Below the pieces are notes generated by a model. It was not told where the DNA came from. It made no database searches and worked only from the letters and a program-made list of their open reading frames with translations. This document shows positions 7,193 through 33,525 of a DNA stretch of 64,000 nt, piece after piece; positions within the stretch are counted from its first letter, which is position 1; each line of letters starts with the position of its first letter. Source of the stretch: Acidobacteriota bacterium (lineage in GTDB: Bacteria; Acidobacteriota; Terriglobia; UBA7540); the NCBI GenBank assembly GCA_004298155.1, contig SCRD01000025.1, forward strand, positions 85,022 to 149,021, read 5' to 3'. The position numbers and the translations under genes were made by a program.

Positions 7193-7220
7193 TTGACCAA
7201 TATGTTATTCGTAACATATT
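7193..7220 (+). promoter_or_regulatory. Putative promoter overlapped by a perfect palindrome (operator-like)
   Basis: TTGACC (7193-7198) could be a -35 box. CATATT (7215-7220), 16 bases further on, could be a weak -10 box. The spacer and -10 box are covered exactly by a perfect inverted repeat at 7199-7220, with 9-bp arms AATATGTTA and TAACATATT around a TTCG loop. That placement is what a repressor operator would show. It precedes the first gene of the phage-derived cluster by about 190 bases. The repeat is certain from the sequence; promoter and operator roles are inferred. Confidence 0.45.
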
Positions 7221-7244
7221 GATAACACGATACATACAAATTAT

Positions 7245-7280
7245 CGTCCCAAACGTCCCAAACGTCCCCATCGTCCCATT
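7245..7280 (+). repeat. Four tandem 9-bp repeats (CGTCCCAAA type)
   Basis: Four consecutive 9-mers start at 7245, 7254, 7263 and 7272: CGTCCCAAA, CGTCCCAAA, CGTCCCCAT and CGTCCCATT, followed by a G run. A diverged three-unit copy with a similar AT-rich leader is at 53151-53177. The rest of 7042-7405 is AT-rich leader with no gene I can support. The array could be a protein-binding iteron site or a genome-wide repeat. Confidence 0.7.
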
Positions 7281-7405
7281 TGGGGGGGGTACGCTTAATT
7301 TGTGGGCGGGACACGGACAGCGCCACAGGGTGTGGATGGCGCGGAAAGGGTCCCGGCGCGAGAAGGGGGAGGTGTGTCCTGGAGACGCAATTAAACAGTA
7401 TACGC

Positions 7406-8107
7406 ATGCAGCCGCAACCTGGCGAGACTCGTTCTGCGGCGCCGGCCATTGTCAACCTTGCCGCCGAGCGCCGCCTTGTTCAGCGAGTTTTTGAGCGCTG
7501 TAATCAGACCATTGCCGGCGCCTGCGCACCCTCTTCGACGCCGGTGGAATTTCTTGGCGCGCTGGTGGCAAACGAAAGCGGCGGCGTCGCGGATGCCACG
7601 CGTTTCGAGCCCGCAGTTTACCGCCATCTGCTGGCGGTGGCAGAGAGCCAGTCACCTTCTTACGGAAGCATCAACATGGCAGTGCTCGACCGCGAGCTTG
7701 GCCAGCAGGTTTCTGCGAATAGTGCCGCGCTCCACGCGCGATACATGACGCGCGGCTTTGCCGAGATTTATTCGAGCCAGATCCAGAAGGCGTCCGACGC
7801 CGCGCTGCGCGAGCTTGCCACATCCTGGGGTTACACGCAGATCATGGGTTACCACATGGTGGGCCGGCCAGGCGATGTTCGCCAGCTTCTCGATCCGGGT
7901 TTTCATTTCCGCATGGCCGTCTGGCTGCTGTCGGAGTTCGCCGTCGATTTCCATCTTGATCCCGCAGAAGATTTTGCGGAAATGTTCCGCTGCTGGAACA
8001 CGGGCCGCCCGAACGGCAGCACTTACGATCCCAGCTACGTTGACAAGGGGCTCGAGCGCATGGAGCTTTACCGCCAGCTCCGGCAAGCTCAGGCGGCCGT
8101 CCGATAG
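7406..8107 (+). CDS. Phage endolysin, N-acetylmuramidase (DUF3380-like)
   Basis: The protein of about 233 residues contains a lysozyme-like catalytic region with ANESGG (probable catalytic Glu) followed by SWGYTQIMGYH, the close equivalent of the SWGLMQIMG hallmark of phage N-acetylmuramidases. It has no signal peptide, so export would need a holin, and small membrane proteins follow directly. The ATG at 7406 has no Shine-Dalgarno site. A strong AGGGGGAGG lies ahead of an in-frame CTG at 7379, so the start is open. It is the first gene of the cluster, matching the position of lysis genes ahead of packaging genes in Mu-type phages. The enzyme would cut the MurNAc-GlcNAc backbone at particle release. 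Confidence 0.75.
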   Translation: MQPQPGETRSAAPAIVNLAAERRLVQRVFERCNQTIAGACAPSSTPVEFLGALVANESGGVADATRFEPAVYRHLLAVAESQSPSYGSINMAVLDRELGQQVSANSAALHARYMTRGFAEIYSSQIQKASDAALRELATSWGYTQIMGYHMVGRPGDVRQLLDPGFHFRMAVWLLSEFAVDFHLDPAEDFAEMFRCWNTGRPNGSTYDPSYVDKGLERMELYRQLRQAQAAVR

Positions 8108-8175
8108 GGCGCGGCCCTGCCCGCGGCATTCAGGTTCAATTTTAACTGTTTGGTTAAATCAAAGGAGGAGCAGAA

Positions 8176-8319
8176 ATGATCAACGTAGTGATGTTCCTGG
8201 TCGGGTTTACGGCAGGGCTGATATTGGCCGGGCTTTTTGAGCAGCGCGCGGTCAGGGAAATCCTGAACCTTCGCACTTACCTGCGCGCCGAGCTTCAGAG
8301 GCTGGCGGCGAGGCTGTAA
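8176..8319 (+). CDS. Small single-pass membrane protein of the lysis region
   Basis: A 47-residue ORF starts with ATG at 8176, five bases after an exceptionally good AAAGGAGGAG ribosome binding site. Residues 2-20 form one hydrophobic segment (VVMFLVGFTAGLILAGLF) and the tail is basic and helical (LRTYLRAELQRLAARL). It is too short for most gene callers. Size, topology and position between endolysin and the other membrane proteins fit a small holin or antiholin-like protein, but no family is recognised. Confidence 0.6.
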   Translation: MINVVMFLVGFTAGLILAGLFEQRAVREILNLRTYLRAELQRLAARL

Positions 8320-8400: not shown

Positions 8401-8469
8401 ACCTCCACGGCTTAGAAATAGAACGGCGGCCCCGCCCCGCGGGACGGCCGCTCCAGAAAAAGAAGAACC

Positions 8470-8694
8470 ATGCGCGAATACATCAAACAGCTTTTTTCTG
8501 AATACGGTGAAGCAAGTTTCGGGCGCACCGGCTCGTTCTTCGGCCTGGTGCTCGGGTGCGGCTGGGTTTCGTTTCTAGTCTGGACCACGCACCATCTTCC
8601 AGACCTCGAAGGGCTGACGGTTTTTATCTCCACGCTCTATGGACTCAGCAAGACGGGCGAGACCGTGCAGCGGGTGTTGGGAAAAAAGAATTGA
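8470..8694 (+). CDS. Small membrane protein, possible holin
   Basis: The 74-residue protein has two hydrophobic segments, about 22-40 (SFFGLVLGCGWVSFLVW) and 46-60 (LEGLTVFISTLYGLS), with a charged N-terminus and a basic C-terminus (RVLGKKN). A purine-rich AGAAAAAGAAGAA precedes the ATG. It sits between the endolysin and the spanin-like gene, so a class II holin role is reasonable. No sequence motif proves it, and it could equally be a general phage membrane protein. Confidence 0.5.
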   Translation: MREYIKQLFSEYGEASFGRTGSFFGLVLGCGWVSFLVWTTHHLPDLEGLTVFISTLYGLSKTGETVQRVLGKKN

Positions 8695-8696
8695 AC

Positions 8697-8781
8697 GATT
8701 GAGTGATCGGGTGATTGGTCATTGGGCTCCGCCCAGGCCGCAGCTTGTAACGCTTCAGTCACTCAATCGCTAAATCACTCA
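8697..8781. repeat. Self-complementary GATTGAGTGAT repeat between genes
   Basis: The words ATTGAGTGATCGGGTGATTG (8699-8718) are mirrored by CACTCAATCGC and AAATCACTCAAT (8760-8783). The repeat runs up to the start region of the spanin-like gene, so any longer N-terminus read through it would be repeat-encoded. Confidence 0.65.
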
Positions 8782-8796
8782 ATGTTCAGGATGAAC

Positions 8797-9777
8797 ATGG
8801 CAATGATGGAAGCACTGAAGAATTTAATTCGTCGGGTCCCGGGGCGTTACTGGCTTGTCGTGGGGGGCCTGCTGGCGGCGGCGTTCTGGATGCAGCAGCA
8901 TGACGCACGAATCCGCCAGCAGGCGGGGCTTCAGCAGTTGCGCAGCGAAACTTCGGCGGAAGTGGCCGGGCTGCGCAAGCAGGCCGCGCACGATGTGGAG
9001 CAGGCAAACGTCGAGAACGCCAAAGCCGTTGCAGAACTTGAGCAGCGCCGCCAGCAGGCGGAACAGCAGAGCCGGCAACTGGCCGCGCAGCTCGCCGGTT
9101 TGCGCAACCAGGCGCAGGTCCAGGCTGGCGAAGTGGCCACGCTTCCGATATCGGAAATAGTGACACGCGTGGCCGCCCAGCTTGGATTGAAGGCGGAAGA
9201 CGTTGCCTCGAATGGGCAGCACGGGAAAAGCCCCCTCACCCGGCCCCGCCAGGCGGGACCACCCTCTCCCCTCGGAGAGGGCCTGGCCACGCACTCTTCT
9301 GCTCCTCCGCCGGATTGTCATCCTGAGGAGCGGCAGGCGACGAAGGATCCCGGCAGTTCAATAGCCGCGTCAGGGCAAGCTCCATGCAAGGAGCAGACTG
9401 CGGGGATCCTTCGCTCCGCCCAGGATGACAGGGCGGCCGCCTTGTCCCTCACTGCTTCCGGAGCGCGCAAAGTGGAGACGGCGCTCGTGGCGCTCGACGC
9501 CTGCCGCGCGGAGAGCAGCATCCAGGGCCGGCAATTTTCAAACTGCCAGGTCCGCGCCGAGGCGGATGAGGCCGCCATCGGGCGCCTGAACGGTTCGGTG
9601 GTCAGCCTCAACCAGGCCCTTGCGGCAAAAGACAAGGTCCTCGCCGGGCAGCAGGCCGAGTACAAAGCGGAACTGCGCGCCGCCCGGGGAACTTTTCTGG
9701 GCCGCCTGGCGCGCCTGACGGAGCACGTAGCCATCGGCGTGGGATTGGGCGTGGCGATTGGAGTGGCGGTGAAATGA
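8797..9777 (+). CDS. Spanin-like (Rz-type) membrane coiled-coil protein with in-frame repeat insertion
   Basis: Starts at 8782, 8791, 8797, 8803 and 8806 are all in frame; AGGA at 8788 best serves 8797. After a transmembrane segment (YWLVVGGLLAAAFWM) comes a long Gln/Ala-rich coiled coil of about 90 residues, then a second coiled coil and a C-terminal Gly/Val-rich hydrophobic segment. This resembles phage Rz-type spanins or inner-membrane lysis accessories. Between the two coiled coils about 75 residues (nt 9215-9445) are translated from REP-like repeats: low-complexity Pro/Ser/Gly text, then CHPEERQATKDPGSS and GILRSAQDD. The frame is kept through the insertion. The gene overlaps the next by four bases (ATGA). 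Confidence 0.5.
   Translation: MAMMEALKNLIRRVPGRYWLVVGGLLAAAFWMQQHDARIRQQAGLQQLRSETSAEVAGLRKQAAHDVEQANVENAKAVAELEQRRQQAEQQSRQLAAQLAGLRNQAQVQAGEVATLPISEIVTRVAAQLGLKAEDVASNGQHGKSPLTRPRQAGPPSPLGEGLATHSSAPPPDCHPEERQATKDPGSSIAASGQAPCKEQTAGILRSAQDDRAAALSLTASGARKVETALVALDACRAESSIQGRQFSNCQVRAEADEAAIGRLNGSVVSLNQALAAKDKVLAGQQAEYKAELRAARGTFLGRLARLTEHVAIGVGLGVAIGVAVK
9231..9432. repeat. Two REP-like elements inside the spanin-like gene
   Basis: 9231-9290 is a copy of the CCCCTCACCCGG / CTCTCCCC / GGAGAGGG palindromic family, also at 10213-10272 and 10996-11052. 9316-9432 is a copy of the TCATCCTGAG / GAAGGATCC ... GGATCCTTCG / CAGGATGACA family, also at 13677-13825 and 46187-46260. Both are imperfect inverted repeats. 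Here they are translated without a stop or frameshift. Confidence 0.75.
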
Positions 9778-10130
9778 TGCCTCAGGACTTTGCGCGCATG
9801 GCCATGTGGTGGGGACCCGGTGTGCTGCTTCTGCTTGCCTTCAGTTACGGGCTGCTGCGCCTCGCGCAGTTATGGATTGAGCGCAGCATGGACGCGCGGC
9901 GCCGCCAGATGGAAAGCCTCTTTGGCATGGCGGAGCAGTACGTGAAGCAGTTCCTCAACGCGCAATTGTCGCAGGCAGAGGCGCTTTCAAGGCTGGCTTC
10001 AAGCGTCGAGCAGAGTGATTCGCGCGACAGCATGGAGCACCAGCAGATCCTGGTTGCCCTGCGGGCCATGCATGGCGACATCGAACGGCTGGTCCGCCGG
10101 CCCGCGAATCCGCATGAATCTGAAGGATAG
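9774..10130 (+). CDS. Membrane-anchored coiled-coil phage protein (DUF2730/Mu gp25-like)
   Basis: The 118-residue protein has one transmembrane segment (about residues 13-32, WGPGVLLLLAFSYGLLRL) followed by a charged helical stretch that could form a coiled coil. Its start overlaps the previous stop (ATGA), implying translational coupling. In Mu-type phages a TM plus coiled-coil protein of this size (gp25, DUF2730) stands just before gp26 and the small terminase, which is the order here. The alternative is a second spanin component. The call rests on position and architecture only. Confidence 0.45.
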   Translation: MMPQDFARMAMWWGPGVLLLLAFSYGLLRLAQLWIERSMDARRRQMESLFGMAEQYVKQFLNAQLSQAEALSRLASSVEQSDSRDSMEHQQILVALRAMHGDIERLVRRPANPHESEG

Positions 10131-10396: not shown

Positions 10397-10711
10397 ATGA
10401 CCAGCAGCGTACGGCAAAAAGAAATCGTCAGAGGAAAAATCCTTTACTACCTCAAACTGATCTACCCGCAGTCGGCAACCCTTCCGTTGCTGCAGGGCGA
10501 GCTCGACATCTTCGGTTATCCGGTGCCGATCGACGACCTGGATTTCCACGTCGCCTACCTGGCGGAAAAGGGGCTGGTGAGCACGGAAAACCTTCGCGGC
10601 CCTCACCCGCGCCGCCACATCACGCTGGTGAAAATCACCGTCAAAGGGATCGATTATTTCGACGGACGCCTGCCCAGGGACGAAGGAGTTTATCTCGAAC
10701 CGGAGGCTTAA
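10397..10711 (+). CDS. Mu gp26-like winged-helix phage protein
   Basis: From the ATG at 10397 (AGGAG ten bases upstream) the product is 104 residues. The pattern of an N-terminal helix (GKILYYLKLIYPQ), a second helix ending in ELDIFGYPV, a DLDFHVAYLAEKGLV helix and a wing with ITLVKITVKGIDYFDG fits the small winged-helix proteins that stand before the small terminase in Mu-like phages (gp26 family). A longer frame back to 10139 is translated repeat sequence. The gene precedes the small terminase, consistent with an assembly or packaging accessory role of unknown mechanism. Confidence 0.6.
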   Translation: MTSSVRQKEIVRGKILYYLKLIYPQSATLPLLQGELDIFGYPVPIDDLDFHVAYLAEKGLVSTENLRGPHPRRHITLVKITVKGIDYFDGRLPRDEGVYLEPEA

Positions 10712-10895
10712 AAAGCAATTACGAATTATGAATTACGAACCCGGGTGGCTCAGATATCGCATTCTTTGCGATGTCTGCGAGACGGCGGCAGCGGGTTTGG
10801 GAGGTTCTCTGTGTCCTCTGCGGTTCAAAAGATTTACCACGGAGCACACAGAGCGCACAGAGGAAGCAACGGAAAGCGTGAAGGGCAGGAAGTCA
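10712..10895. repeat. Composite repeat block before the small terminase
   Basis: AATTACGAATTATGAATTAC is at 10717-10736. It is followed by TGGCTCAGATATCGCATTCT with TTTGCGATGTCTGCG (10746-10782), and by a palindrome with arms TCTCTGTGTCCTCTGCGGTT (10806-10825) and ACCACGGAGCACACAGAG plus GCACAGAGGAA (10837-10865). Confidence 0.65.
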
Positions 10896-11741
10896 ATGAG
10901 CGAACAGACGCGACGAAAAACTGAAAGGCCGCGCAGAAACGCAGGCACCGCGAAAAGCGCGACATCTGCACCACCGCAGCCAGCCGGAGGCGGACTGACC
11001 CCTCACCCGGACGCTGGCGCGTCCACCCTCTCCCCTCGGAGAGGGCTTGAACAAGGGTTTTCCGCAGACACCGCACAGAACGCGGCGTCTGCGCCAGCCG
11101 GCGAAGGGCGGCATGCGCGCCCTGTGACCGACGTGTTAAAGCTGCCGGCCGGGCTGCGCGAGCTGGTGGAACGCATGCTGGTGGAAGGTGCTACCTTCGA
11201 GGACGTTTGCGATTCCGTGAACGAGCGTGGCGTGCCGCTCACGCTGCAGGCCATCCAGAACCGTTACCGCGGCGATCTGGACCTGCAAAAGCGGCGGATT
11301 GAGTTCCAGGTGGAGCGCGCGCGGGCACTGACCGAGGCGCTGGGCGATCCCGAGTCATCGGACGCGCAACTGGCGTACGCCGCCATGCTGACGGGGCTCC
11401 AGAGCCTGAACCGCAAAGACGGCACCCTCAGTCTGAAAGAGGCCGTTAAAGGGTCAATGGAGCGCCGCAACCTCCTGCTGAAGCGCGACCTGCTGCGCAT
11501 GCAGATTGCGCGTGAAGAGCAGGAAAAAGGCTTTCGCAGGACGCGCCTGTACGCCGAGATGTTGAAGGTGCGGCTCACCAAAGCCAAGCTGGCGCAATTG
11601 CAGCAGGAACTGAAGAAGCATGAGAACAGCTCCACGCTGGGCCGGGTGGCCATGGAAAAAATCCAGGAGATTTACGGACTGCTGCAGATTCCCGTGATTC
11701 CGAAGGACGCGGACCTGGAGAGGGAAGAGAAGAAATTGTGA
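10896..11741 (+). CDS. Terminase small subunit, DUF3486/Mu gp27-like
   Basis: The ATG at 10896 follows AGGA with a five-base gap, giving 281 residues. Residues about 75-130 contain a helix-turn-helix-like region (LRELVERMLVEGATFEDV, then ERGVPLTLQAIQNRYRG). A long charged helical C-terminus follows, with repeated Arg/Lys/Gln and RRNLLLKRDLLRMQIAREE, as in the gp27/DUF3486 family that recognises DNA for packaging. Residues about 20-70 are Ala/Ser/Pro-rich text translated from repeat elements, an in-frame insertion between the basic N-terminus and the DNA-binding region. It is followed 137 bases later by the large terminase. Confidence 0.65.
   Translation: MSEQTRRKTERPRRNAGTAKSATSAPPQPAGGGLTPHPDAGASTLSPRRGLEQGFSADTAQNAASAPAGEGRHARPVTDVLKLPAGLRELVERMLVEGATFEDVCDSVNERGVPLTLQAIQNRYRGDLDLQKRRIEFQVERARALTEALGDPESSDAQLAYAAMLTGLQSLNRKDGTLSLKEAVKGSMERRNLLLKRDLLRMQIAREEQEKGFRRTRLYAEMLKVRLTKAKLAQLQQELKKHENSSTLGRVAMEKIQEIYGLLQIPVIPKDADLEREEKKL
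10950..11105. repeat. Repeat elements inside the small terminase gene
   Basis: Elements of the GCGAAAAGCGCGACATCTGC (10951-10970) and CGCAGACACCGC/GGCGTCTGCGCC (11061-11096) family flank a copy of the CCCCTCACCCGG...GGAGAGGG palindrome (10999-11048). All are read through in frame. Confidence 0.7.
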
Positions 11742-11878: not shown

Positions 11879-13645
11879 ATGCCTCGAAAGAAGACACAAA
11901 TCGCAAAGAAGACGGCAGAGGCGCAAGAGCCAATGGCCGCAGACATGGCAAAAAGCGCCACGTCTGCGCCACCCGGCCCCCGGAGAGGGCTTGAGCATAA
12001 CTCGCCGGCCCGGGCGGAAGTGGTCAGCGCTCCCGTCCGCCTGCTGCCCTACCAGCGCCGCTGGGTGGAGGACCGCTCCTCGCTGAAGATGGTGGTAAAG
12101 GCGCGGCAGATCGGCTACTCGTTTGCCGCCACGCTGCAGGCCCTGCTGCGCTGCCTGGAGCGCAAGACCACCTGGATCTTTCTTTCCAAGGGCGAGCGGC
12201 AATCGAAGCTGCTGATGGAAAAAGTGCAGGAGCACATCCAGAGCTGCGGGATTGTGGCGCAGGCGTTTGAGTCCACTTTCTTTGAAGGGGCCAGCCAGAA
12301 GCAGCTTGAGGTGCGGCTGCCGAACGGGTCGGTGATTTACGGCCTGCCGTCGAATCCCGACACGGCGCGCGGCTATTCCGGCAACGTGACGCTTGATGAA
12401 TTCGCCTTCCACGCCGACGCGGCAAAGATCTATTCAGCGCTCTTCCCGACCATCACGCGCGGCTATTCGCTGGAAGTGATCTCGACGCCCAACGGGCAGC
12501 AGGGAAAATTTTATGAGCTGGCGAAGGCGGCGGGGATGGCGGACGGGCGAATAGCGAATAGCGAGTTGCGAGCAGCAAGAGACGAAGCCCCTATTCGCGA
12601 TTCGTTACTCGCTACTCGCTGGTCTCCCCACTGGTGCGACGTTTATGAGGCCGTGCGCCAGGGATTGAAGATCAACGTTGAACTGCTGCGCGCAGGCTGC
12701 GACGACGAACCAACCTTCCAGCAGGAATTCTGCTGCCAGTTTGTTTCCACGGCGGAAAACTTTTTTTCACCCGAGCTTCTGGCCGCCTGCCTAAGCGCCG
12801 AGGCCAGAACGGATACACCGGCCCACCAACTGGCCTCGGCGAGCGGCATCGATCAATCAGGATTCGGCCGGCGGCGACTGGACGGAACAATCGAGGGGCC
12901 GGCAACTACCGGCCAGGTTTTAGAGAGAAATGTATTCCCGGCTTCAGGCTCCGAATTTTTCCTGGGCATCGATATTGGCCGGCAGCACGACCGCACGGTT
13001 TTCTGGCTGGATGAGGTGACGGCCCTGGGCTGCCATCCTGAGGCCGCGGATGCGGGTAGGGGAGCCCTCCGGGCTCCCGCGGGAGGGCAGAGCCCTCCCC
13101 TACCGGGCGCAGAAGAAAACCAGTCGATTGCCCGCATTGTGCGCACGCTTGACCGCGCTCCATTTGCGGATCAGCTCGAGTGCGCGCGCGAATTCCTGCG
13201 GCTGGAAAGGGAAGACGGCAGCCCACTGGTCCGGCGCGCAGCCATCGACGCCACGGGCATCGGGGCGATGCTGGCGGAAACGCTGGCGGCGGAATTCGGA
13301 CCGCGCGTGGAACCCGTGATTTTTACCGCGGCGGTGAAGGAGAACCTGGCGTTCCGGACCAAGCGGCGGATGGAAAAGCAGCTCTCTCTGCTGCCCGACA
13401 CGCGGGAAGTCCGGCGCGCCTTCAGCGCCGTGAAGCGCGTGGTGACGCCGAGCGGCAATCTGCGCTTTGACGCTGTGCGAACGGCGGCGGGACATGCCGA
13501 CGAATTCTGGGCCAAGGCGCTGGCCGACCTGGCCGCTGAGGCAGAGCCGGCCCCCGTGGCGGCAGACGCGTATCTTGCGGGCGGTGGATCCATCATCAAC
13601 CCCCGGGCGTTTACGGAACTCGATGGAGGATGGGAAGCGTTCTGA
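11879..13645 (+). CDS. Terminase large subunit, Mu gp28-like, with three repeat-derived insertions
   Basis: The 588-residue packaging motor has an adenine-binding PYQRRWVEDRS, an ATPase P-loop region (VVKARQIGYSFAAT, near residue 73), a Walker B-type VTLDEFAFH (about 170) and a C-terminal RNase H-like nuclease domain beginning FFLGIDIGRQHDRT (about 360), with further acidic motifs in AAIDATGIG and GHADEFW. It pumps DNA into the capsid and cuts it. Three stretches look like translated repeats: residues about 20-40 (nt 11935-11996), about 222-248 (nt 12544-12622) and about 382-412 (nt 13029-13110). All keep the frame and fall at a terminus or in likely surface loops. There is no Shine-Dalgarno match at the ATG; the upstream 137 bases hold further repeat words. 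Confidence 0.82.
   Translation: MPRKKTQIAKKTAEAQEPMAADMAKSATSAPPGPRRGLEHNSPARAEVVSAPVRLLPYQRRWVEDRSSLKMVVKARQIGYSFAATLQALLRCLERKTTWIFLSKGERQSKLLMEKVQEHIQSCGIVAQAFESTFFEGASQKQLEVRLPNGSVIYGLPSNPDTARGYSGNVTLDEFAFHADAAKIYSALFPTITRGYSLEVISTPNGQQGKFYELAKAAGMADGRIANSELRAARDEAPIRDSLLATRWSPHWCDVYEAVRQGLKINVELLRAGCDDEPTFQQEFCCQFVSTAENFFSPELLAACLSAEARTDTPAHQLASASGIDQSGFGRRRLDGTIEGPATTGQVLERNVFPASGSEFFLGIDIGRQHDRTVFWLDEVTALGCHPEAADAGRGALRAPAGGQSPPLPGAEENQSIARIVRTLDRAPFADQLECAREFLRLEREDGSPLVRRAAIDATGIGAMLAETLAAEFGPRVEPVIFTAAVKENLAFRTKRRMEKQLSLLPDTREVRRAFSAVKRVVTPSGNLRFDAVRTAAGHADEFWAKALADLAAEAEPAPVAADAYLAGGGSIINPRAFTELDGGWEAF
11935..11996. repeat. Repeat element in the large terminase N-terminus
   Basis: CGCAGACATGGCAAAAAGCG and CCACGTCTGCGCCACCCGG form the same inverted-repeat family as at 10279-10310 and 10140-10172. 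It is followed by CCCGGAGAGGGCTTGAGC, the tail of the GGAGAGGG family. The copy is translated within the terminase frame. Confidence 0.65.
12544..12622. repeat. Self-complementary GCGAATAGCGA repeat inside the large terminase
   Basis: GCGAATAGCGAATAGCGAGT (12546-12565) is mirrored by CTATTCGCGATTCG and TACTCGCTACTCGC (12591-12621). The 79-base element adds about 26 residues (IANSELRAARDEAPIRDSLL) between the ATPase and linker regions without breaking the frame. Confidence 0.7.
13055..13104. repeat. Palindromic insertion in the terminase nuclease domain
   Basis: The 10-bp arms GGTAGGGGAG (13055-13064) and CTCCCCTACC (13095-13104) enclose a GC-rich imperfect palindrome. It adds about 17 residues, and about 30 with flanks, between strands of the RNase H fold, directly after FWLDEVTALG. 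Confidence 0.7.
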
Positions 13646-13884
13646 ATTCTGAGTTATGAATTATGAATTACACAATCCCGTCATCCTGAGCCCGTTCGCT
13701 TGTCATCCTGAGCGAAGCGAAGGATCACCGTATTTCGCTCAGGACAAACTCCGCGAAGAATCCCTGCATTTGCAGAGCAACACAACTGCCGGGATCCTTC
13801 GTCGCCTTCGGCTCCTCAGGATGACGGGAATTGAGAATGACCGCGGGGGCATCGCCGATTCAGCACGAAGATCGAGGAGAAAAA
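13646..13884. repeat. Composite repeat block before the portal gene
   Basis: GAGTTATGAATTATGAATTA is at 13650-13669. It is followed by a large TCATCCTGAG...GGATCCTTCG...CAGGATGACGG element (13677-13825) with two nested copies. The portal ATG and its GAGGAG site follow at once. Confidence 0.75.
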
Positions 13885-15195: not shown

Positions 15196-15261
15196 CGGGT
15201 GGATAGTGCGGGTGATAAGTACACGACGATTTGAAATTTCAGATTTGTGATTGGAGATGAC

Positions 15262-16428: not shown

Positions 16429-16593
16429 CCGCGGCCCCAACGGCAAGGCAATTTATCGATTTGATAAACCCGGCTGGCTCTGGCGTCGTACATGCCGGCA
16501 AGCCGCCAACGCAGCAAGTGTATTTCGTAGGGGCACGGCGTGCCGTGCCCAAACCAGCGGGACGATGCAGTCGGTCCCTACAGGAGGATATCT
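16429..16593. repeat. REP-like sequence before the decoration-protein gene
   Basis: The gap contains GTAGGGGCACGGCGTGCCGT (16529-16548), itself palindromic at GGCACGGCGTGCC, and the answering GGTCCCTACAGG at 16573-16584. AGGAGG at 16582-16587, six bases before the next GTG start, overlaps its end. Confidence 0.55.
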
Positions 16594-18237: not shown

Positions 18238-18322
18238 GTAGCGCAGACCTCGTTCGGAGCGGTCTGCGGCTCTTGAAGAGAAAGGCCGCAGGCTTTTTGA
18301 AGGGCGAAAGTTTGCGCTACCC
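18238..18322. repeat. GTAGCGCAGACCTCG-family inverted repeat
   Basis: GTAGCGCAGACC at the left and TTTGCGCTACC at the right enclose a hairpin (GCAGACCTCG / CGGTCTGCGG) and a GGCCGCAGGCTTTTTGAAGG segment. Close relatives lie at 18957-19039 and 19673-19760, each before a head-tail gene. Confidence 0.7.
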
Positions 18323-18344
18323 AACTTGCCAGAGAGGAACGAAC

Positions 18345-25932: not shown

Positions 25933-26115
25933 ATGCCGGTGATTACGAACCCGAGTTTTGACCTGAACAACACGGCGCTTTTCAAGCAGCCGCTCTACGT
26001 GGCGCAAATTGAAGGAATCATGGACGTGTTGACGACCTTCCGGCCGGAAGACATGAACGTGGGACACACCGGCTACGGCATGAATGGGTACGGGACCACC
26101 GGGTACGGGTACTGA
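25933..26115 (+). CDS. Small Gly/Tyr-tailed protein of the tail-tip region
   Basis: This 60-residue ORF lies between two tail-tip genes in the same direction, with a GAGGATG ribosome-like site ten bases upstream. The first half (TNPSFDLNNTALFKQPLYVA) is ordinary; the last 18 residues are a Gly/Tyr/Asn repeat (GHTGYGMNGYGTTGYGY). No family is recognised. Tight packing between neighbours supports it being a real gene; the function is unknown. Confidence 0.5.
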   Translation: MPVITNPSFDLNNTALFKQPLYVAQIEGIMDVLTTFRPEDMNVGHTGYGMNGYGTTGYGY

Positions 26116-26138: not shown

Positions 26139-29100
26139 ATGGCGGAAGTCAGTGATTATTATTCCGGGGACCTTGCGGCGGCGCTGAGCGGGGAACTCGC
26201 GTGGATCGAGGGCCAGATCAACGCCAACGTCTCGCCGTTTGCGGGTATTGCGCTTACAACTGAGACCAGTGCTCCTTTTGTAGAGGGCGCTGTAGACGCG
26301 GTGAAGAATTCTTTCTCGAGTCTTGCGCAGACCTCCGTGCCCAATATCGTCCTTGATCCCATCGCCGGCCTCACCTCGGACGGCCAGGCCGGCCCTGACG
26401 GCTTTCCGGTTAACTATTCGCCCATTCCTTTGCTTTCGGGCAACCTGCTTATCAACCTTTTCACGCTCGGCACCGCCAGCAATGTCAACGGCCGGGTGCT
26501 GAATCTGGCCCAGCCCGCGTCATCCTACCGTGTGGACGTCTATTCTTTCACCGACAGCTTTCATTATCAGGGTTCGGCAACAATTGCCTCCGGCGGCACG
26601 TGGACACAACCGTTCGTGCAGCCAGGAACTGTGATCGCCTTCCTGATGGATGCCGGCGCGCCGCAGCCGGCCGCAGGCTCTTCCACGCCATCGGTCGCGG
26701 GCTGGATTGCCCATTCCAATACCGGCGTGGGGAAGAAGCTTAAGGATTATTTCGCCCGCGTTACCGTCAAGACTTACCTCGAGTCTGTGGTGGAAGACAA
26801 CATTCCCATCATCGTTCAGGACTCGACGCACGCGCGGTTTGGGACGAGCCTGGCGATTGGTTCGGGCACGCTGGTGGCCCACGTGTTCTACAACGATCCA
26901 TCACTGGGCCCCGTCGACCTTTATTCGACGTTACAAAGCCCTGCCGCCTATCCGGACCTTCCACGCGAGGTTGAGGTCCCACCCAGTGACCCGGACTTCT
27001 TCACCGCGGCGCAACTGACCAGCTCGAATCTGCCAGCCGTCCAGAACCGCTGCTGGATATACAGTGCAGCGCTGGCCATCATCAGTTTTTCCGTAGGAGG
27101 CCTGTGGGACGCCGCCGCGCGCATCATCACTCAGCTCAACGCCCTCCTCGAAAGTTCTGGCTATCTGCCGGCCATCATCCTCGAAGACGCCCAGGATGGG
27201 ACAACCTCGCGGTGGTCACTCCAGTCGGGCGCAGGGTCAGTGGCCAATGCTCTGGATACAGCCGAGCCTCCGTCCGAATCCGGCGGCTCGAGGGTCATCT
27301 TTTTCACGGCCACCAGTGCTCCAGCGAGCTGGATCTTTACCGGAGTCGGATTGCCGGATGTTATCGATTCACTCATCGAGTGGCGATTTAAGACCAATGT
27401 GAATTTCAAATTCACCGTGGGGCTGGCAAGTTCCGGCGGGCGAGTGACGTCTTTCCGTCTGGTTTCATCCGGAACTGCCGGGTATGATGCTGTGACGAAA
27501 ACGGTGACGGCGGTATTGCCGCTCCGACTCAATGCCTGGCAAACCTATCTTGCCGACCTGAACGCCCGGATCGGCCAGTACATGAGTGGCGAGACTGTTA
27601 CTTCGATCACTTCATTCGCGGTTGAACTCGAATCCACCGGTATCCTTAGCCTGGATGACCTTTCGGCAGGCGCTCCCAAGCCTGCGGGATCCCTCAGTGT
27701 TTCCTATGACGTTTACAACGGCCAGGCCGATCAGGCAACTATCCGGGCCGGCGCTTTGGCCTGGGTCGCCTACGCCTATGGCACCTATATGGAACGGACG
27801 GGAGACTACGAGCGCGCCGCAACCGGACTTGAGAGCATGCTCGATCTCCTCTTCTTCCTGCAATCCGCGGCCACGGATGCGCGACAGAACCTGATCACGG
27901 CCGGCTGGGGAATCTACCAGGATCCCGGCTATCAGTTCGTGCCGGGGCAGATTTCAAGCGTCTACACCGACGACAACTTTGTCTGCTGGTTTGCTTTTGA
28001 TAAGGCGGCGCGCGTGCTGCCGGCAGCGGCGCAGACTTTGCTCGCGGAAGGATTGATCACGCAGGCTGAGTCGGCGCAGATCAGCGCGGCAGCAGGCAAC
28101 GCGTCCACCAAAGCATCCCAAATCAGGTCTGCGATTTTGAACCAGATGTGGATTCCGGCATCGGGAAATGTGAACGGGCATTTCGCGCGCGGAGCTTCGA
28201 GTTCAGGCCTGGACACATCGCTTGCGCTGGGCTCGGCGAGCTCGTGGGCCGCGTTGTTCTGCCACGAAATCGGCGATGACGCGAGGGCCGTCGAATGCCT
28301 GGAATTTGCCTTTGAAACCTTCTTCCTCCGCAACCAGCAGATTGTTGCCAGCGCCGTCGCCAATTCGTACAACCAGGCCTACTTGCAGCTGACGCCCTTT
28401 GATGGGTTCAAGCCCTGCGCAGACTCAACGGGCGGTTACTCAGGCTCCCCCATGTCGGTCTCAATGGAAGGAACGATGGCGATCCTGGCCGGGTTGCTGC
28501 GCCTGAGTGATAACACCGCCCTGGAAACTTACTTCAGCGCAAACTATGCGGGCGGCCTGCCTTCCTTTATCGGGCGGCTGGTCGAAAGTATGAACATTGT
28601 TGCTCGCGGCACCGGTTCGGACGGGCTGTTGGCTTATTCCCTGGCGGCGAGGGCGCTACCTTGGGAGATTGCGGTCCGCAAGACAGTATCCTCGACTGCC
28701 TGGTTCTGGCTGACGGCGCTGCGCAATGATATTCTGCTGTCCTCGTCTTCGGCTGACCTCGGCCGGCACCCTTGCCTGAAAGTCCCGCAGGGAGTTCACC
28801 AAAGCATCCAACAGTTGCAGGGGCAGAGCTCGATTGGCGCCCTCGAGATCGACGCCATCGACAGCAACGGATTCATGACCGCGCTTGCGAGCCGCGGCAA
28901 GCTCGTCGGCCGCCGGTTGGTTCTCAGCGTAGGTTACCCGGGCATGAACTCCTCCGACTTTGTAACCGTTGCCACCCAGGAGATTGAAGGAATCGAAGTG
29001 CTTCCTTCAGGCGGCGGGTATCGCCTCGACTGCCATGACCTGAATCGCTACGCCAAATCACAAATCTTTACCGTGGGTGACGACGGGGCTGCTGTCTCGA

Positions 29101-30116
29101 ACCAGCATCCGCGAAGGCTGCTGGCCAATCCCATGGACCTGGTCCTGATGGTTATGCAGAATGAGCTGGGGCTTGGGCAATCGTCGCTGGTGGACCCTGC
29201 AGCATGGAAATTCTACGATCCCGCGAAGTGGGACTCCACAAACACCACGAACCCTACACTGATCACTCCCAACCCCTACCTTGAAGTGGACCAGGTGCTG
29301 TTTTATCGCAATGGTATCTTTGCAGGATACCTTTTTGATTTTGAATTCAAACAGCCGGTTGAAGCCAAACAGTTTCTGGAATTCGAAATATTTCACCCTC
29401 TCGGCGGCTATGCGGTGATTCTGGCAGACGGACGCATGTCTCCGCGATTTTTTGTTCCGCCGTATTCCTTTGCGGGTCTGGCCTCGCTGAACGAGCGGAA
29501 TATCACGGCAATCCCGGGCGTAAAGCCTGAGCCGCTGATCAACCAGGTGACATTCCGAATGGACTACGACGGGAGCGGGTTCCAGACTGAACTTTTGTTT
29601 CTCTCATCTCCGTCTCTTCAGCAATTCGGTCTGGCCGGTGAAGACATTATCGAATCCAAGGGAATGAAGCTGGAGCGCGGAGGGGCCTCGCTGGCGGGCA
29701 TCACGGCTAACAGGATCTTCCATCGCTATGGCGGGATCGACCCCGTGTCCGGCTTGCCGCGCGGTGGAGCGCCCGCTCTCAGCGTGACCAGCCAGTTTAT
29801 GAATTTGACAATAGAAGCCGGTGACTTTGTTTACTTTTCCCATCCCCTGCTGCCCAACCTTGAGGCCGGGACCCGGGGAGTCTACAACCGCATCATGGAA
29901 GTGGTGGGCAAGCAGCCCAATTACACGCAGGGAAACATGGCCTATCAGTTGCTGGATACCGGCTGGATGGGAGGCAAGGTGCTCTCGCGGATCGCACCAC
30001 AGGGCACGCCCGCATGGAGCGCGGCTTCGAGCGCTGAACGCGAGCGCTACATGTTTCTTTCGCAGGAATCTAACGGGAATTATTCCGACGGCACACGGGG
30101 CAAGACAGTTTTTTAG
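26139..30116 (+). CDS. Tail hub/tip protein with embedded carbohydrate-binding-like and six-hairpin-glycosidase-like domains
   Basis: This is the largest gene of the cluster (1325 residues), with AAGGAG seven bases before the ATG. Residues 1-340 are beta-rich and unrecognised. Residues about 345-515 look like a jelly-roll carbohydrate-binding module (ILEDAQDGTTSRWSLQSG to GILSLDDLSAG). Residues about 520-865 look like an alpha/alpha-toroid glycosidase: ALAWVAYAYGTYMERTGDY, AGWGIYQDPGY, YTDDNFVCWFAFDKAARVL, SLALGSASSWAALFCHEIGD, GGYSGSPMSVSMEGTMAIL. Residues about 868-1325 are a phage tail hub (SIGALEIDAIDSNG, LVGRRLVLSVGYPG, YRLDCHDLNRYAKS). It would plug the tail tip and digest surface glycans. 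Catalytic residues cannot be fixed by eye. Confidence 0.65.
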   Translation: MAEVSDYYSGDLAAALSGELAWIEGQINANVSPFAGIALTTETSAPFVEGAVDAVKNSFSSLAQTSVPNIVLDPIAGLTSDGQAGPDGFPVNYSPIPLLSGNLLINLFTLGTASNVNGRVLNLAQPASSYRVDVYSFTDSFHYQGSATIASGGTWTQPFVQPGTVIAFLMDAGAPQPAAGSSTPSVAGWIAHSNTGVGKKLKDYFARVTVKTYLESVVEDNIPIIVQDSTHARFGTSLAIGSGTLVAHVFYNDPSLGPVDLYSTLQSPAAYPDLPREVEVPPSDPDFFTAAQLTSSNLPAVQNRCWIYSAALAIISFSVGGLWDAAARIITQLNALLESSGYLPAIILEDAQDGTTSRWSLQSGAGSVANALDTAEPPSESGGSRVIFFTATSAPASWIFTGVGLPDVIDSLIEWRFKTNVNFKFTVGLASSGGRVTSFRLVSSGTAGYDAVTKTVTAVLPLRLNAWQTYLADLNARIGQYMSGETVTSITSFAVELESTGILSLDDLSAGAPKPAGSLSVSYDVYNGQADQATIRAGALAWVAYAYGTYMERTGDYERAATGLESMLDLLFFLQSAATDARQNLITAGWGIYQDPGYQFVPGQISSVYTDDNFVCWFAFDKAARVLPAAAQTLLAEGLITQAESAQISAAAGNASTKASQIRSAILNQMWIPASGNVNGHFARGASSSGLDTSLALGSASSWAALFCHEIGDDARAVECLEFAFETFFLRNQQIVASAVANSYNQAYLQLTPFDGFKPCADSTGGYSGSPMSVSMEGTMAILAGLLRLSDNTALETYFSANYAGGLPSFIGRLVESMNIVARGTGSDGLLAYSLAARALPWEIAVRKTVSSTAWFWLTALRNDILLSSSSADLGRHPCLKVPQGVHQSIQQLQGQSSIGALEIDAIDSNGFMTALASRGKLVGRRLVLSVGYPGMNSSDFVTVATQEIEGIEVLPSGGGYRLDCHDLNRYAKSQIFTVGDDGAAVSNQHPRRLLANPMDLVLMVMQNELGLGQSSLVDPAAWKFYDPAKWDSTNTTNPTLITPNPYLEVDQVLFYRNGIFAGYLFDFEFKQPVEAKQFLEFEIFHPLGGYAVILADGRMSPRFFVPPYSFAGLASLNERNITAIPGVKPEPLINQVTFRMDYDGSGFQTELLFLSSPSLQQFGLAGEDIIESKGMKLERGGASLAGITANRIFHRYGGIDPVSGLPRGGAPALSVTSQFMNLTIEAGDFVYFSHPLLPNLEAGTRGVYNRIMEVVGKQPNYTQGNMAYQLLDTGWMGGKVLSRIAPQGTPAWSAASSAERERYMFLSQESNGNYSDGTRGKTVF

Positions 30117-30157: not shown

Positions 30158-30199
30158 TTGGACGGGCCGTTCGATGGATCGACCGGCCAACGAGTCCAA
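30158..30199. repeat. Hairpin between hub and next tail gene
   Basis: TTGGAC (30158-30163) pairs with GTCCAA (30194-30199), and the inside segments GGCCGTTCGAT and ATCGACCGGCC also pair with one mismatch. It is another member of the junction hairpins, with a different stem sequence. Confidence 0.6.
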
Positions 30200-30226
30200 C
30201 ATTCAATAAACAGGTGGAGAAAACTG

Positions 30227-30709
30227 ATGGCACAAATGACGTTCGCAACAACTCCGGGCTTTGTGGACCTTCCGGATTCGGTGCTCCAGGCAGACCAGCC
30301 GCTGACCGATTACGTTCTTACCAAGATCAACAACAACGCAAAGTTTGCAGCCGTACGGCCTGAAATTTTTTACGGTTGGTACAAGAACGGTGAGATGGTG
30401 ACGATTCCGTTGAGTCCGGTGGATGGCTATGTTTACGCCCGGCAGGAGCTGGAATACGAGGTCGCCGCGTGGTGCTCGAGATCTCCGGCCAGCGGCTCCG
30501 CAACCAACGGGGCCCTGGTCAAGCCCGTCCGCGCCAGTGTGAATGACGGGCCGGGCAGCCTGTTCCTCATGGATTTTTGGGTCGAAGAGAAAAACGAGGC
30601 CAATCCCGGACTTGTCCACTGCGACACCCACTACTGGGATGGCGGAACAGAGACGCCAACGAGCGGCGGGTTTATGAAAGTGCGAACAATCGCGACAAGA
30701 TTGTCCTAG
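30227..30709 (+). CDS. Phage tail protein of unknown function
   Basis: From the ATG at 30227 (GGTGGAG upstream) the product is 160 residues. It is beta-rich with many aromatic residues (EIFYGWYKNGEMVTIPLSPV, YARQELEYEVAAWCS, FLMDFWVEEKNEANPG, HCDTHYWDGGTETP). I do not recognise a family. It lies between the hub and the fibre-type genes, where small baseplate or fibre-attachment proteins are usual. Confidence 0.45.
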   Translation: MAQMTFATTPGFVDLPDSVLQADQPLTDYVLTKINNNAKFAAVRPEIFYGWYKNGEMVTIPLSPVDGYVYARQELEYEVAAWCSRSPASGSATNGALVKPVRASVNDGPGSLFLMDFWVEEKNEANPGLVHCDTHYWDGGTETPTSGGFMKVRTIATRLS

Positions 30710-30805
30710 CAGCCATCAGCCTCGAGCGGCCACTCCTCAAAAACAGGTTGCTGGCGGCGTAGGGCTGATACCTGATGGCTGAAAGCTGATAGCGGAGGAA
30801 TCACA
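30710..30805. repeat. Self-complementary AGCCATCAGCC repeat
   Basis: AGCAGCCATCAGCC (30710-30723) is answered by GGGCTGATACCTGATGGCTG and AAAGCTGATAGC (30762-30793). GGAGGAATCAC, the ribosome site of the next gene, follows directly. Confidence 0.65.
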
Positions 30806-31471
30806 ATGGCAGTTGTCCGAACAGTTCTACCGCGCAAGGGAATCATTGAGCCCCAGCACGGGGCCAACTACGAGACTGACCTTGACACCAACTGGCAGAT
30901 CATTGACAGCCTGCTGCAGGATGCCAACGACGTGAAGACAGCCATCCAGGCCGCTCCTACTGTGACGGCCTGGGTGTCAGACCGGGGCATTTCAGGGGTC
31001 GTCAGCGGGTTTGTGCTTTCGACTTCCGCCACGCTGGCACCCGGTCTTTCCGTGGGTGTACTTTATGCCCAGGGGCTCCGCTATGCGCCGGCCTCCGCGC
31101 CGGCGCTTTCGGCCGCTCCGGCAAGCTCCAGCAGCTACCTTTTCTATAATTCCACAGGCGGGTTCTACTACAACCTGACCGGCGCCGCCAGCACTGCCGG
31201 CGACGCCTTTATGGGGATCGTGATAACCAACTCGACTGCCGTTACTTCGGTGACGCAAGCCACGAAGATATGGGGACAACTGACCATAGTGCCGGGAGCA
31301 GTGGGCAATTTTACAGTGCCGCACCTGCTGGGCCGCGCGCCTGTGGGAGCCCTGGTTCAAATGACGTCAAGCGGGGCCATCTGGTTCCAGTCCTCGACGA
31401 TGTATGACAACACAAATCTCTATCTGGTCGCCTCAGACCCGACGGTGACCGCAAAGGTGCAGATATGGTGA
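30806..31471 (+). CDS. Tail fibre or baseplate attachment protein
   Basis: The 221-residue protein has a strong GGAGG site. The N-terminus (LPRKGIIEPQHGANYETDLD, then NWQIIDSLLQDANDVKTAI) is of the kind that anchors fibres to tail tips in siphophages. The rest is Ser/Thr/Ala/Gly-rich beta structure typical of fibres. Its stop overlaps the start of the second spike gene by seven bases, implying translational coupling and a shared particle role. The receptor is unknown. Confidence 0.55.
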   Translation: MAVVRTVLPRKGIIEPQHGANYETDLDTNWQIIDSLLQDANDVKTAIQAAPTVTAWVSDRGISGVVSGFVLSTSATLAPGLSVGVLYAQGLRYAPASAPALSAAPASSSSYLFYNSTGGFYYNLTGAASTAGDAFMGIVITNSTAVTSVTQATKIWGQLTIVPGAVGNFTVPHLLGRAPVGALVQMTSSGAIWFQSSTMYDNTNLYLVASDPTVTAKVQIW

Positions 31472-33525
31472 GAATTATGGAAAAAACAATTACGAATTAC
31501 GAATTACGAATGAATCATAAACGTGGAGGCGCGGATTCCAAATGGCAGCAATCTGTGTTCATGGCAATCTTTTTTGCTGCGTCATTCGTAACTGGTAATT
31601 CGTCATTGCTCTTTGGGCAGCAGCCCCAGGCGCCTGCGGGAACGCCGTTGTATTCCGCCAATGCCAAGTACGTGAACGGTATGGCTCCAGGTTACTGGCC
31701 AACAGCAGGGAGTGGCCTGACCCTCAGCCTGAGCGCGGGAACAGCTTATTGCGGCAATCCGCCTGCTCCGGTCAGCTATCCTGGCGGATCTTTAGCCCTG
31801 GCTGCCAGCACGACGAATTACATCTACCTGGATCCCGCTAACAACTGTGCTCCCGCTGCCGCCACGTCGGCGTTTTCGGCAGGACAGATTCCCATCGCGA
31901 AGGTGCTAACCGGAACCTCATCGATCACCTCTATTACCGATGCCCGCACATGGTTCCAGCCGCAGCCCTGCGTGGCCGGTTCCGCAGGGGACCTGCACTG
32001 CTCGTCACTCGGAGCCAACCAGAACATTTCGCTCACCCCGAGCGGCACAGGCTTCTCTGTGATTACGAACCTTATGGACAAAGGCGGACAGGTCTTCAAC
32101 GTCAAGGCGTATGGGGCAAAAGGAGACGGAGCGACAAACGACAGCCCGGCTTTTCAGAGCGCCTATAATGCAGCAGTCGCAGCGGGAGGCGGCATTGTTC
32201 TTGTTCCTCCTACTGGAAGTTCAAGCTGCTATCTACTAAGCACCGCAATCAACATGACCTCCGATGGTACGCGGGTGACCATTGACGGCACTGGAGGCAT
32301 CGGCCCCGTACAAACAGGGTCATCCGGTTTGATCTGTGCGAATACAGGCGGCGTTTTATTTGACATAACTAATTCAAGTCAAAAGACGTTTCAAAACCTG
32401 GATGTTACCGCTCAAAAATCTGGGTTGAGTAGTCCAAGTATGATAGGCATTCTCTCGGCCCGTAATTCAACAGGCCAGAGCGGGCAGTTCGATCACGTTA
32501 TCAACTGCGTCTTTGCGATGCCGCTCCACTATAGCGGCACTGTCTATTCATTCGGAGTGTATCTATTCGGCGGTGAGATCACATTTCTGTCAGATGATAC
32601 CTTGGAAGCAGATTACCCGATTGTTGCTACGGGCACCAATAATTTCAATATTACAAGCCCGTTCGTTACGCTCGGCACCGGCACGTATTCCGAGACAGAC
32701 ATATCATTCAACAATATGGAATTGCTGACCTCCGGCCTTGGCCCTGCCGTTTACCTGTACGGTGCTAGCGACGTGAACTTATCAGGGCATAGCTGGAATT
32801 TTAGCCAAGCCAACCCTTATCCCGCGGGTCTCTATGGGTATGCTTTTGAGATATACGATTCCCATGACATTCATGTTCGAGCTTGGCGTCAGGAAGGGTT
32901 TCCGGGTTTTGCATATATTAACAAGGGTTTATATAACAGCACCATTCAAGGCACTCATGCCCCCTCGCCTACTCCTACCACGCACGCTGTAGAGTTCAAT
33001 GACGCATCATCAGAGATTGAAGATGATGACTTCAAAATCTTCGACGAGATGAATACATCCGCCAACTGGTATTACGATGCAACCGGGGGGGCTCCAACAG
33101 GCGTAGCGGTTCTGGACAACGTGAGTTTCTACTGTGGTCAGGAAAGTAATTGCGTAAACGTCCCGGTCGGAAATTTCAGTACCGGCCACGTAATGTACTG
33201 GTCCAAAGTTCGCTGGTCAGGGTCCGGCTCGAATTCAAGCCCAATCATCCGCATCGACCAAGGAACTTACCAGTTGCCATTGACAGGAGGCTTCACCATT
33301 CCGACGACTGCGGTCGCGGCGAATAGCTGCACAACCCTGGCGCTTGTAAGTGCGGCGGGCGCACCGGCGCTGGCTACAGTTCAAATGCACCCTCAAACCT
33401 GGTACGGCCTGCTTGTAACAGCCGCTTGGGGAACGGGTGGGTTTTCCCCTGTACTCTGTAACCCGACCTCTGCCTCCATAACCCCCGGCGCATCAATCGG
33501 GGCAACATTCAGGGTCGTTCAATAA
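31465..33525 (+). CDS. Tail spike 2: pectate-lyase-type beta-helix with signal-peptide-like N-terminus
   Basis: The ATG at 31465 lies inside the previous gene's end and has AAAGGTG six bases before it. The first 50 residues include a hydrophobic segment (FMAIFFAASFVTGNSSLLFG) resembling a signal peptide. A Ser/Ala-rich stalk and GGQVFNVKAYGAKGDGATND, then AVAAGGGIVLVPP, mark the same beta-helix family as spike 1 (GGQVYNAKAYGAKGNG). The C-terminal part (TTAVAANSCTTLALVSAAGA) is a small knob. Nucleotides about 32150-33300 are more AT-rich than the flanks. It is the last gene of the cluster. Binding or degradation of surface polysaccharide is inferred from the fold. Confidence 0.65.
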   Translation: MVRIMEKTITNYELRMNHKRGGADSKWQQSVFMAIFFAASFVTGNSSLLFGQQPQAPAGTPLYSANAKYVNGMAPGYWPTAGSGLTLSLSAGTAYCGNPPAPVSYPGGSLALAASTTNYIYLDPANNCAPAAATSAFSAGQIPIAKVLTGTSSITSITDARTWFQPQPCVAGSAGDLHCSSLGANQNISLTPSGTGFSVITNLMDKGGQVFNVKAYGAKGDGATNDSPAFQSAYNAAVAAGGGIVLVPPTGSSSCYLLSTAINMTSDGTRVTIDGTGGIGPVQTGSSGLICANTGGVLFDITNSSQKTFQNLDVTAQKSGLSSPSMIGILSARNSTGQSGQFDHVINCVFAMPLHYSGTVYSFGVYLFGGEITFLSDDTLEADYPIVATGTNNFNITSPFVTLGTGTYSETDISFNNMELLTSGLGPAVYLYGASDVNLSGHSWNFSQANPYPAGLYGYAFEIYDSHDIHVRAWRQEGFPGFAYINKGLYNSTIQGTHAPSPTPTTHAVEFNDASSEIEDDDFKIFDEMNTSANWYYDATGGAPTGVAVLDNVSFYCGQESNCVNVPVGNFSTGHVMYWSKVRWSGSGSNSSPIIRIDQGTYQLPLTGGFTIPTTAVAANSCTTLALVSAAGAPALATVQMHPQTWYGLLVTAAWGTGGFSPVLCNPTSASITPGASIGATFRVVQ
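31480..31610. repeat. AATTACGAATTA repeat pair inside the start of spike gene 2
   Basis: CAATTACGAATTACGAATTA (31487-31506) is answered by GTCATTCGTAACTGGTAATT and CGTCATTGC (31581-31609). Both halves are translated: the first as TITNYELRM, the second as part of the hydrophobic signal-like segment (SFVTGNSSLL). Confidence 0.7.

Follow-up and report, generated by a model that had tools for sequence, protein, structure and literature searches.

The window analysed here, a 64,000-nucleotide stretch of an acidobacterial genome (G000:C25:85022-149021), carries a cluster of co-directional phage packaging, head and tail genes at positions 7400-33525, set between housekeeping genes. The genome comprises 5.21 Mb in 29 contigs and is estimated to be 97.6% complete. 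We think that the cluster is probably a phage-particle locus that the host lineage has domesticated and keeps as a device resembling a gene transfer agent (GTA), its source being a Mu-type transposable siphophage. That the locus is domesticated is very probable; that its particle would transfer DNA to other cells, the defining property of a GTA, we hold to be somewhat more likely than not.

We regard the locus as domesticated and GTA-like, and not as a decaying prophage, because it is present in nearly the whole host family, occupies a shared chromosomal site, shows low ratios of nonsynonymous to synonymous substitution (dN/dS) and combines a short tape measure with a large hub, in contrast to a related phage. 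An earlier note on this DNA had proposed a domesticated structural cluster with a Mu-type head and a siphophage-like tail, and the near-family-wide presence, the purifying selection and the lack of a linked transposase bear this out. The decayed prophage that it named as the main alternative is made unlikely by the low dN/dS, the open frames and the shared site, which also rule it out as the main reading.

Presence, chromosomal site and selection

Across 39 genomes of the host family, the capsid gene is found in 32, the hub gene in 29 and either of the two in 35. The earlier note had taken patchy presence with different insertion sites as a sign against domestication; presence is not patchy, while some genera do carry the cluster at other sites. 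We also searched a sample of 399 genomes of the class that are at least 90% complete, made up of 19 family members and 380 others; among collection genomes at least 85% complete, the order consists of this family alone. The major capsid protein (MCP) is matched in 16 of the 19 family genomes and in 15 of the 380 others, the outside matches having 28-42% identity. The hub profile matches 16 of the 19, and in 13 of these the hub is complete within a single frame; a full-length hub was found in none of the 380. Outside the family, the C-terminal hub part alone is present in four genomes, as expected of ordinary phage hubs, and weak partial matches occur in two.

The site is common to seven genera through one or both flanks. 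Both window flanks are present in G038 (genus g1), G025 (g12) and G027 (g14), with dtd and the 4870 gene to the left of the cluster and, to its right, cyclodeaminase genes and/or remnants of corA. The right flank is common to G037 (g1), G018 (g9), G019 (g10), G010 (g3) and G015 (g6); in G019 it consists of corA and two further genes, and no cyclodeaminase was found in that genome. In G038, G037, G025, G027, G018, G010 and G015, the cyclodeaminase gene and the cluster lie close together on one contig. Part of the right flank is seen in G021 (g11) and dtd in the metagenomic contig L050, and G017 (g8) is not placeable because its contigs end.

As the earlier note had it, the cluster is bounded by dtd (PF02580) and a corA pseudogene, whose N-terminal part (33535-33723) and remainder (33728-34615) lie in different frames. 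This border gene is frameshifted in the window while the cluster genes remain open. It is full length in G018 and G019 and cut short in G027; tblastn gave no corA match in the congeners G038 and G037, and G038 has a match over 11% of the profile length.

Between the window and G038, the 23 core genes (a set without the fibre, the spike and the doubtful 17032 open reading frame, ORF) have dS of 0.28-0.65, with a median of about 0.48, and dN/dS of 0.06-0.36. The comparison of structural genes across relatives that the earlier note suggested finds purifying selection. The dN/dS is 0.06 for the tail protein at 23117, 0.07 for the capsid, 0.10 for the portal, 0.12 for the hub, 0.19 for the tape measure, 0.20 for the large terminase (TerL), 0.31 for the lysozyme-like protein, 0.35 for the small terminase and 0.36 for the 8722 gene; the neck gene was compared over 74 codons only. 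Nine flank genes, excluding the short 34656 gene (dS 0.17, dN/dS 1.6), have a median dS of about 0.67 and dN/dS of 0.07-0.32. The fibre and spike genes have dS of 1.3-1.6 and dN/dS of 0.31 and 0.20, respectively, and the 17032 ORF has a dN/dS of about 1.1. Comparisons with G037, L041 and L050 give values of a similar kind.

A mobile relative is found in a genome of the window's own genus. This phage, G037:C47, encodes a transposase (phrog_310, E 5e-66; a Pfam match to the Mu-transposase C-terminal domain is below cut-off), a MuB-like DNA transposition protein (phrog_296, E 1.5e-26), a phage lysozyme and a weak holin match, followed by the structural gene order of the cluster, with a capsid 56% identical to that of the window. 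The tape measure of this phage is 710 residues long and the hub 509; the corresponding lengths are 651 (by position) and 525 in metagenomic L051, and 809 and 467 in the class genome G260. In the clusters of the window, G025, G010, G015, G036, G033 and G017, the recognised tape measures run to 248-303 residues. G001 has an ORF of 276 residues in the corresponding place and G012 one of 314. Cluster hubs are mostly 1323-1557 residues long. The G018 hub has 1243 residues and a different N-terminal part, and those of G033 and G021 are split or cut.

No window flank gene is shared by the 38 kb of the phage G037:C47 contig that were searched. Its transposase has a patchy distribution, being matched in 10 of the 39 family genomes; the window genome has no more than a 136-residue match at 31%, on a different contig. 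Additional capsid copies found in g2 genomes (L264, L266) adjoin longer tail genes, and in G007 a transposase homologue lies on the same contig; these copies are probably Mu-like prophages.

Gene content and proposed mode of action

The genes of the cluster and its borders are as follows, in window coordinates, with the evidence for each assignment.

6592..7071, minus strand: dtd (D-Tyr-tRNA deacylase), conserved left host flank; PF02580, E 8e-56
7400..8107, plus strand: lysozyme-like lytic enzyme, probable release or entry enzyme; motifs, position
8176..8319, plus strand: small membrane protein, holin-like by position; LapA-domain match below curated cut-off, kept in G038, L050 and G027
8470..8694, plus strand: small protein, possible holin by position; 59-92% identity in relatives having it, no family match
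8722..9777, plus strand: protein with a hydrophobic segment near ORF residue 44, possible lysis accessory; no family match, dN/dS as above
9774..10130, plus strand: small conserved cluster protein; 47-86% in relatives, no PHROG match, Pfam chance-level only
10400..10711, plus strand: winged-helix (PadR/MarR-like) protein, candidate regulator; phrog_436, fold
10728..11741, plus strand: small terminase, Mu gp27-like; PF11985 E 2e-6 (barely above cut-off), phrog_426
11879..13645, plus strand: large terminase (TerL); phrog_5909 E 5e-31, phrog_2 E 1e-27, T4 gp17 E 9e-5
13831..15195, plus strand: portal protein; phrog_113 E 2e-65, solved portal chains E 5e-19
15247..16428, plus strand: head maturation protease; phrog_328 E 1e-23
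16540..17004, plus strand: scaffold/decoration protein; phrog_673 E 1e-8
17291..18226, plus strand: MCP; phrog_1005 E 3e-82, 3bjq E 2e-28
18273..18830, plus strand: head-tail connector candidate; syntenic in relatives, no family match
19097..19600, plus strand: tail completion/Neck1 protein; phrog_26 E 5e-21
19807..20373, plus strand: tail terminator candidate; syntenic, 31-92%, no family match
20568..22874, plus strand: hypervariable fibre or lyase gene, signal-peptide-like start; phrog_32881 E 3e-8
23117..23716, plus strand: tail protein (tube candidate); phrog_2175 E 4e-10, dN/dS as above
23819..24307, plus strand: tail assembly protein candidate; syntenic
24528..25403, plus strand: short tape-measure-like protein, 291 residues; position, synteny, homology to the 710-residue protein of phage G037:C47
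25450..25890, plus strand: distal tail protein candidate; 37-85% in relatives
25933..26115, plus strand: small tail-tip protein; syntenic
26139..30116, plus strand: composite tail hub, 1325 residues; hub profile, Foldseek
30158..30709, plus strand: tail-tip protein; 36-85% in relatives
30806..31471, plus strand: tail-tip/fibre-anchor protein; 41-90% in relatives
31465..33525, plus strand: pectate-lyase-like spike, signal-peptide-like start; PF12708 E 3e-7, tail spike PHROGs
33535..34615, plus strand: frameshifted corA pseudogene, host flank in decay; tblastn with the full-length G018 and G019 CorA, PF01544
35621..36592, minus strand: ornithine cyclodeaminase, conserved right host flank; PF02423 E 6e-70

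The ORFs and family matches confirm a co-directional packaging, head and tail cluster with all frames open, as the earlier note described; of the span it gave, 7193-33525, the cluster itself is real and its proper start is at about 7400. Portal, capsid and terminase sequences match solved phage chains in the PDB. Among the scanned proteins of the cluster and flanks, comparison with PHROG and Pfam revealed no transposase, integrase, repressor or replication gene. The first part of the small terminase ORF resembles an intergenic repeat, and the true start is probably later. Repeats like TTACGAATTATGAATTAC occur in 12 copies in the cluster (window 8313-31515). Dispersed repeats had raised the idea of a second GTA locus at the genome's other repeat-rich spot (G000:C7:186173-201746). 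This was rejected, since the stretch, judged by eye from its ORFs, reads as an array of repeated permease-like genes.

We propose that the T4-gp17-related terminase and the phage portal would fill the head with host DNA, as the anatomy suggests. The particles may be small-headed and short-tailed, the short tail following from the short tape measure; at about 0.15 nm per residue, 291 residues would give a tail near 45 nm. The 'tape measure' label draws on length, position and homology to the longer protein of related phages; the 291-residue length reported in the earlier note holds on these grounds, and there is no family match. Release would be by lysis, through the lysozyme-like enzyme and the small membrane proteins. 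In the lysozyme-like protein the NES and SWG.TQIMGYH motifs are invariant in a seven-member alignment, and we take it to be of a muramidase-like family; it has no Pfam or PHROG match. The 'lysis' label, which the earlier note gave to the first cluster genes, fits by motif and position, and it has no family match behind it.

The hub appears to consist of an N-terminal region, an alpha/alpha-toroid glycosidase-like domain and then a gp27/VgrG-like hub (Foldseek, residues 480-1325), as read from a low-confidence model with a mean predicted local distance difference test score (pLDDT) of 62. The earlier note had described a 1325-residue hub with a glycosidase-like domain on the lines of RcGTA; the domain matches alpha/alpha-toroid enzymes on this model, and the RcGTA hub carries a TIM barrel. 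Searches of phage records with the hub gave one partial match, to 26% of the query, in a Coprococcus phage, and no helpful match came from searching PDB sequences with profiles of the hub, lysozyme-like, tail, tape-measure and tip proteins. The glycosidase-like domain, together with the pectate-lyase-like spikes, may allow passage through the surface polysaccharide of relatives.

The fibre (20568-22874) and spike (31465-33525) have hydrophobic, signal-peptide-like N-termini in a hydropathy scan. The same N-termini are seen in the counterparts in several other clusters and in phage G037:C47 (L133/L134), and they are unusual for proteins of a particle assembled inside the cell. The slot at 20373-23117, between two conserved tail genes, is hypervariable, ranging from 78 bp to 4.9 kb in the clusters measured, and some of these slots hold fibre or lyase genes.

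The conserved winged-helix protein, of 103 residues, may regulate the cluster. In 8 of 10 aligned relatives, spanning type I and clade X, its identity is 74-90%, unlike that of the type I and clade X capsids, which are near 50% identical to each other; because of this high conservation we consider the protein a good candidate regulator on sequence grounds. Identity falls to 40% in phage G037:C47 and 29% in G001 (g2), and phage records searched with the protein gave no match. Its AlphaFold2 model (pLDDT 90) matches PadR and MarR structures in Foldseek at E about 5e-4.

On the left flank, 4870-6534 encodes an uncharacterised protein of 554 residues that adjoins dtd and is kept at the locus in g1, g12 and g14. 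It has no Pfam match, and its C-terminus is presumably nuclease-like, going by a motif.

Trees, history and competing explanations

The host trees and the cluster tree agree in placing g1 with g14, g10 with g13, and g3, g4, g6, g15 and g18 together, although in both the position of g14 depends on few columns; the last group includes g16 in the cluster tree but not in the host trees. The host tree was repeated with six clean markers, since its first version included overlapping antisense frames, and the main groups were unchanged. Rows were left out as follows: ten metagenomic loci from the cluster concatenation, rows less than 15% filled from the tree placing phages among clusters, seven long or poor rows from the monophyly test and four from the head and tail trees. 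MCP distance correlates with host distance over 29 genomes (r 0.45, p 0.0002), and does so within the 11 type I genomes, congeners included (r 0.65), and the 9 clade X genomes (r 0.67).

A number of results weigh against upkeep of the locus by the host lineage. With one genome per genus, type I MCP distance and host distance are unrelated (r 0.07, p 0.42), as are concatenation and host distance (r -0.07, p 0.57), the concatenation distances being distorted by the different genes that genomes hold; per-gene tests were run as well. Monophyly of all clusters is rejected by the approximately unbiased (AU) test (p 2e-5; 7e-4 without g5), the phages G037:C47 and L051 are placed next to type I and g5 clusters, the head genes give a different tree from the tail genes, and the head types of g2, g5 and g16 mismatch their host position. 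Neither capsid nor hub was found in 4 of the 39 family genomes (G003, G022, G028 and G029). The cluster lies at another site in three g18 genomes, a site common to the three, and in one g15 genome the downstream genes match those of one g18 genome's site. In G001 (g2), dtd and the cyclodeaminase gene are about 1.1 kb apart with no cluster between them, and the cluster is elsewhere.

Individual copies provide further points on that side. Cluster dS is below flank dS, which is compatible with some recombination. In G027, TerL is fused in frame to the C-terminal end of the hub (L184:10150-11000), with the TerL-to-hub interior lost through internal deletion or misassembly. G038 has an insertion of about 1.5 kb after neck-gene residue 72 (L124:1961-3490), the first 72 residues of the gene remaining there; the ORF in the insertion is presumably a phage-type lysozyme. 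No neck gene was found in G025. The TerL of metagenomic L050 has a frame break. Some of the damage in the G027, G038 and L050 copies could stem from assembly faults.

A single domestication with strict vertical descent is not supported by the AU tests or by the head and tail trees, which indicate replacement by, or exchange with, phages as far as sequences can tell. The earlier note had looked to the dtd/corA locus for vertical inheritance; the site does recur in other genera, and the vertical part has the agreement within type I and clade X for it, and the rejected monophyly, the differing head and tail trees and the one-per-genus distances against it. We read the history in one of two ways: the locus was kept at host sites over the long term while related phages repeatedly supplied replacement modules, or related phages were domesticated more than once. 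The stronger proposal, of an Acidobacteriota GTA lineage that arose from Mu-type transposable siphophages and has sat at one site since an early family ancestor, with head and tail modules refreshed from circulating relatives, stands at about even chances in our judgement.

The alternative that survives best, though we find it unlikely, is a domesticated headed particle for killing or interference, similar to PBSX of Bacillus subtilis, that may package host DNA and would serve as a weapon against relatives, not as a vehicle for gene transfer. The evidence of domestication fits it equally, the spike and fibre genes are the most diverged, with turnover in the fibre slot, and a glycosidase-like hub with pectate-lyase-like spikes would suit it. 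PBSX itself packages dispersed host fragments of 13.4 kb, according to the consulted part of PMC12946183. No toxin or immunity family was found above cut-off among the scanned proteins, which speaks against a weapon. Fast receptor-binding genes, for their part, are normal in phages and GTAs too.

A GTA-like role also has to be weighed against repeated gain, genus by genus, of defective Mu-like prophages that lost their early region and have no host function. Phages interleave with clusters in the tree, the rejected monophyly and the deviating heads of g2, g5 and g16 would be expected, clusters lie at other sites in g2 and g18, and related Mu-like phages circulate in the family. We nevertheless hold this to be improbable, given a site common to seven genera, core dN/dS of 0.06-0.36 at a dS of about 0.5, nearly family-wide presence, and a short tape measure with a composite hub in most sampled clusters and neither in the phages examined.

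Least probable is that a helper Mu-like phage mobilises the locus in trans as a working satellite or prophage. Such a phage with related structural genes does occur in G037, of the window's genus; no transposase was found in the cluster, however, the site is stable, and the transposase homologue is patchy, with only a weak partial match in the window genome. Satellites as a rule retain mobility genes and rely on borrowed structural ones, the opposite of this cluster. A tailocin is ruled out, as capsid, portal and terminase are present and constrained.

Comparison with known gene transfer agents and related elements

In the consulted passages of PMC9662315, GTA viriforms have structural proteins of caudoviricete origin, mostly random host DNA in the particle, a fully endogenised genome, a locus too large for its own head, mostly vertical inheritance or co-diversification with the host, and delivery of DNA to other cells. 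The structural proteins here are of caudoviricete origin, and endogenisation is full at the locus, with host-gene flanks in several genera and no mobility module found. On co-diversification, the shared site and the MCP-host agreement within type I and clade X speak for it, and the g2, g5 and g16 heads, the monophyly test and the one-per-genus distances against it.

GTAs studied in detail are predominantly alphaproteobacterial; PMC12946183, in the part consulted, concerns an element outside Alphaproteobacteria, where few are known. For acidobacterial prophages, PMC5900883 uses 'gene transfer agents' in a general sense only in its consulted part, and a term search of the main text of PMC11924767, on acidobacterial viruses, found no gene transfer, GTA or transposase. 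Among the papers listed in our literature searches, none reports a GTA in Acidobacteriota in its title or abstract opening. If our reading is true, this GTA-like locus of Mu descent, found in an abundant soil phylum, would add a further GTA origin, and a Mu-type relative from within the genus allows comparison. The locus would also suggest a route of gene exchange in hard-to-culture bacteria. The locus is also a case for studying module exchange between a domesticated particle and phages.

The locus resembles RcGTA (Rhodogtaviriformidae) in being a structural cluster without replication genes, in long residence in the host lineage, and in a short tape measure and a hub of about 1300 residues with a glycosidase-like part. 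It differs in its Mu-type small terminase and related head, and in apparently having an alpha/alpha-toroid in the hub where RcGTA has a TIM barrel. Foldseek matches the hub model to chain 6tba, from the RcGTA particle, at an E of 0.41 and a probability of 0.06 only. No RcGTA chain is among the PDB matches for MCP, TerL, portal or the hub profile, a comparison that covered proteins with a solved chain and is compatible with remote homology.

The Mu-type siphophage G037:C47 shares syntenic TerL, portal, protease, capsid and tail genes and the winged-helix homologue. It differs in its transposase, MuB-like protein, phage lysozyme, long tape measure and short hub; the Mu-type hallmark of a linked transposase and MuB-like protein was not found in the cluster.

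PBSX is likewise a domesticated headed particle, in a host of another phylum and with a killing role. If our reading holds, packaging of dispersed host DNA would be a further likeness (PMC12946183, part consulted), and the locus would stand beside the BaGTA of Bartonella and the BhGTA of Brachyspira, viriforms that the consulted part of PMC9662315 presents as independently exapted phage loci.

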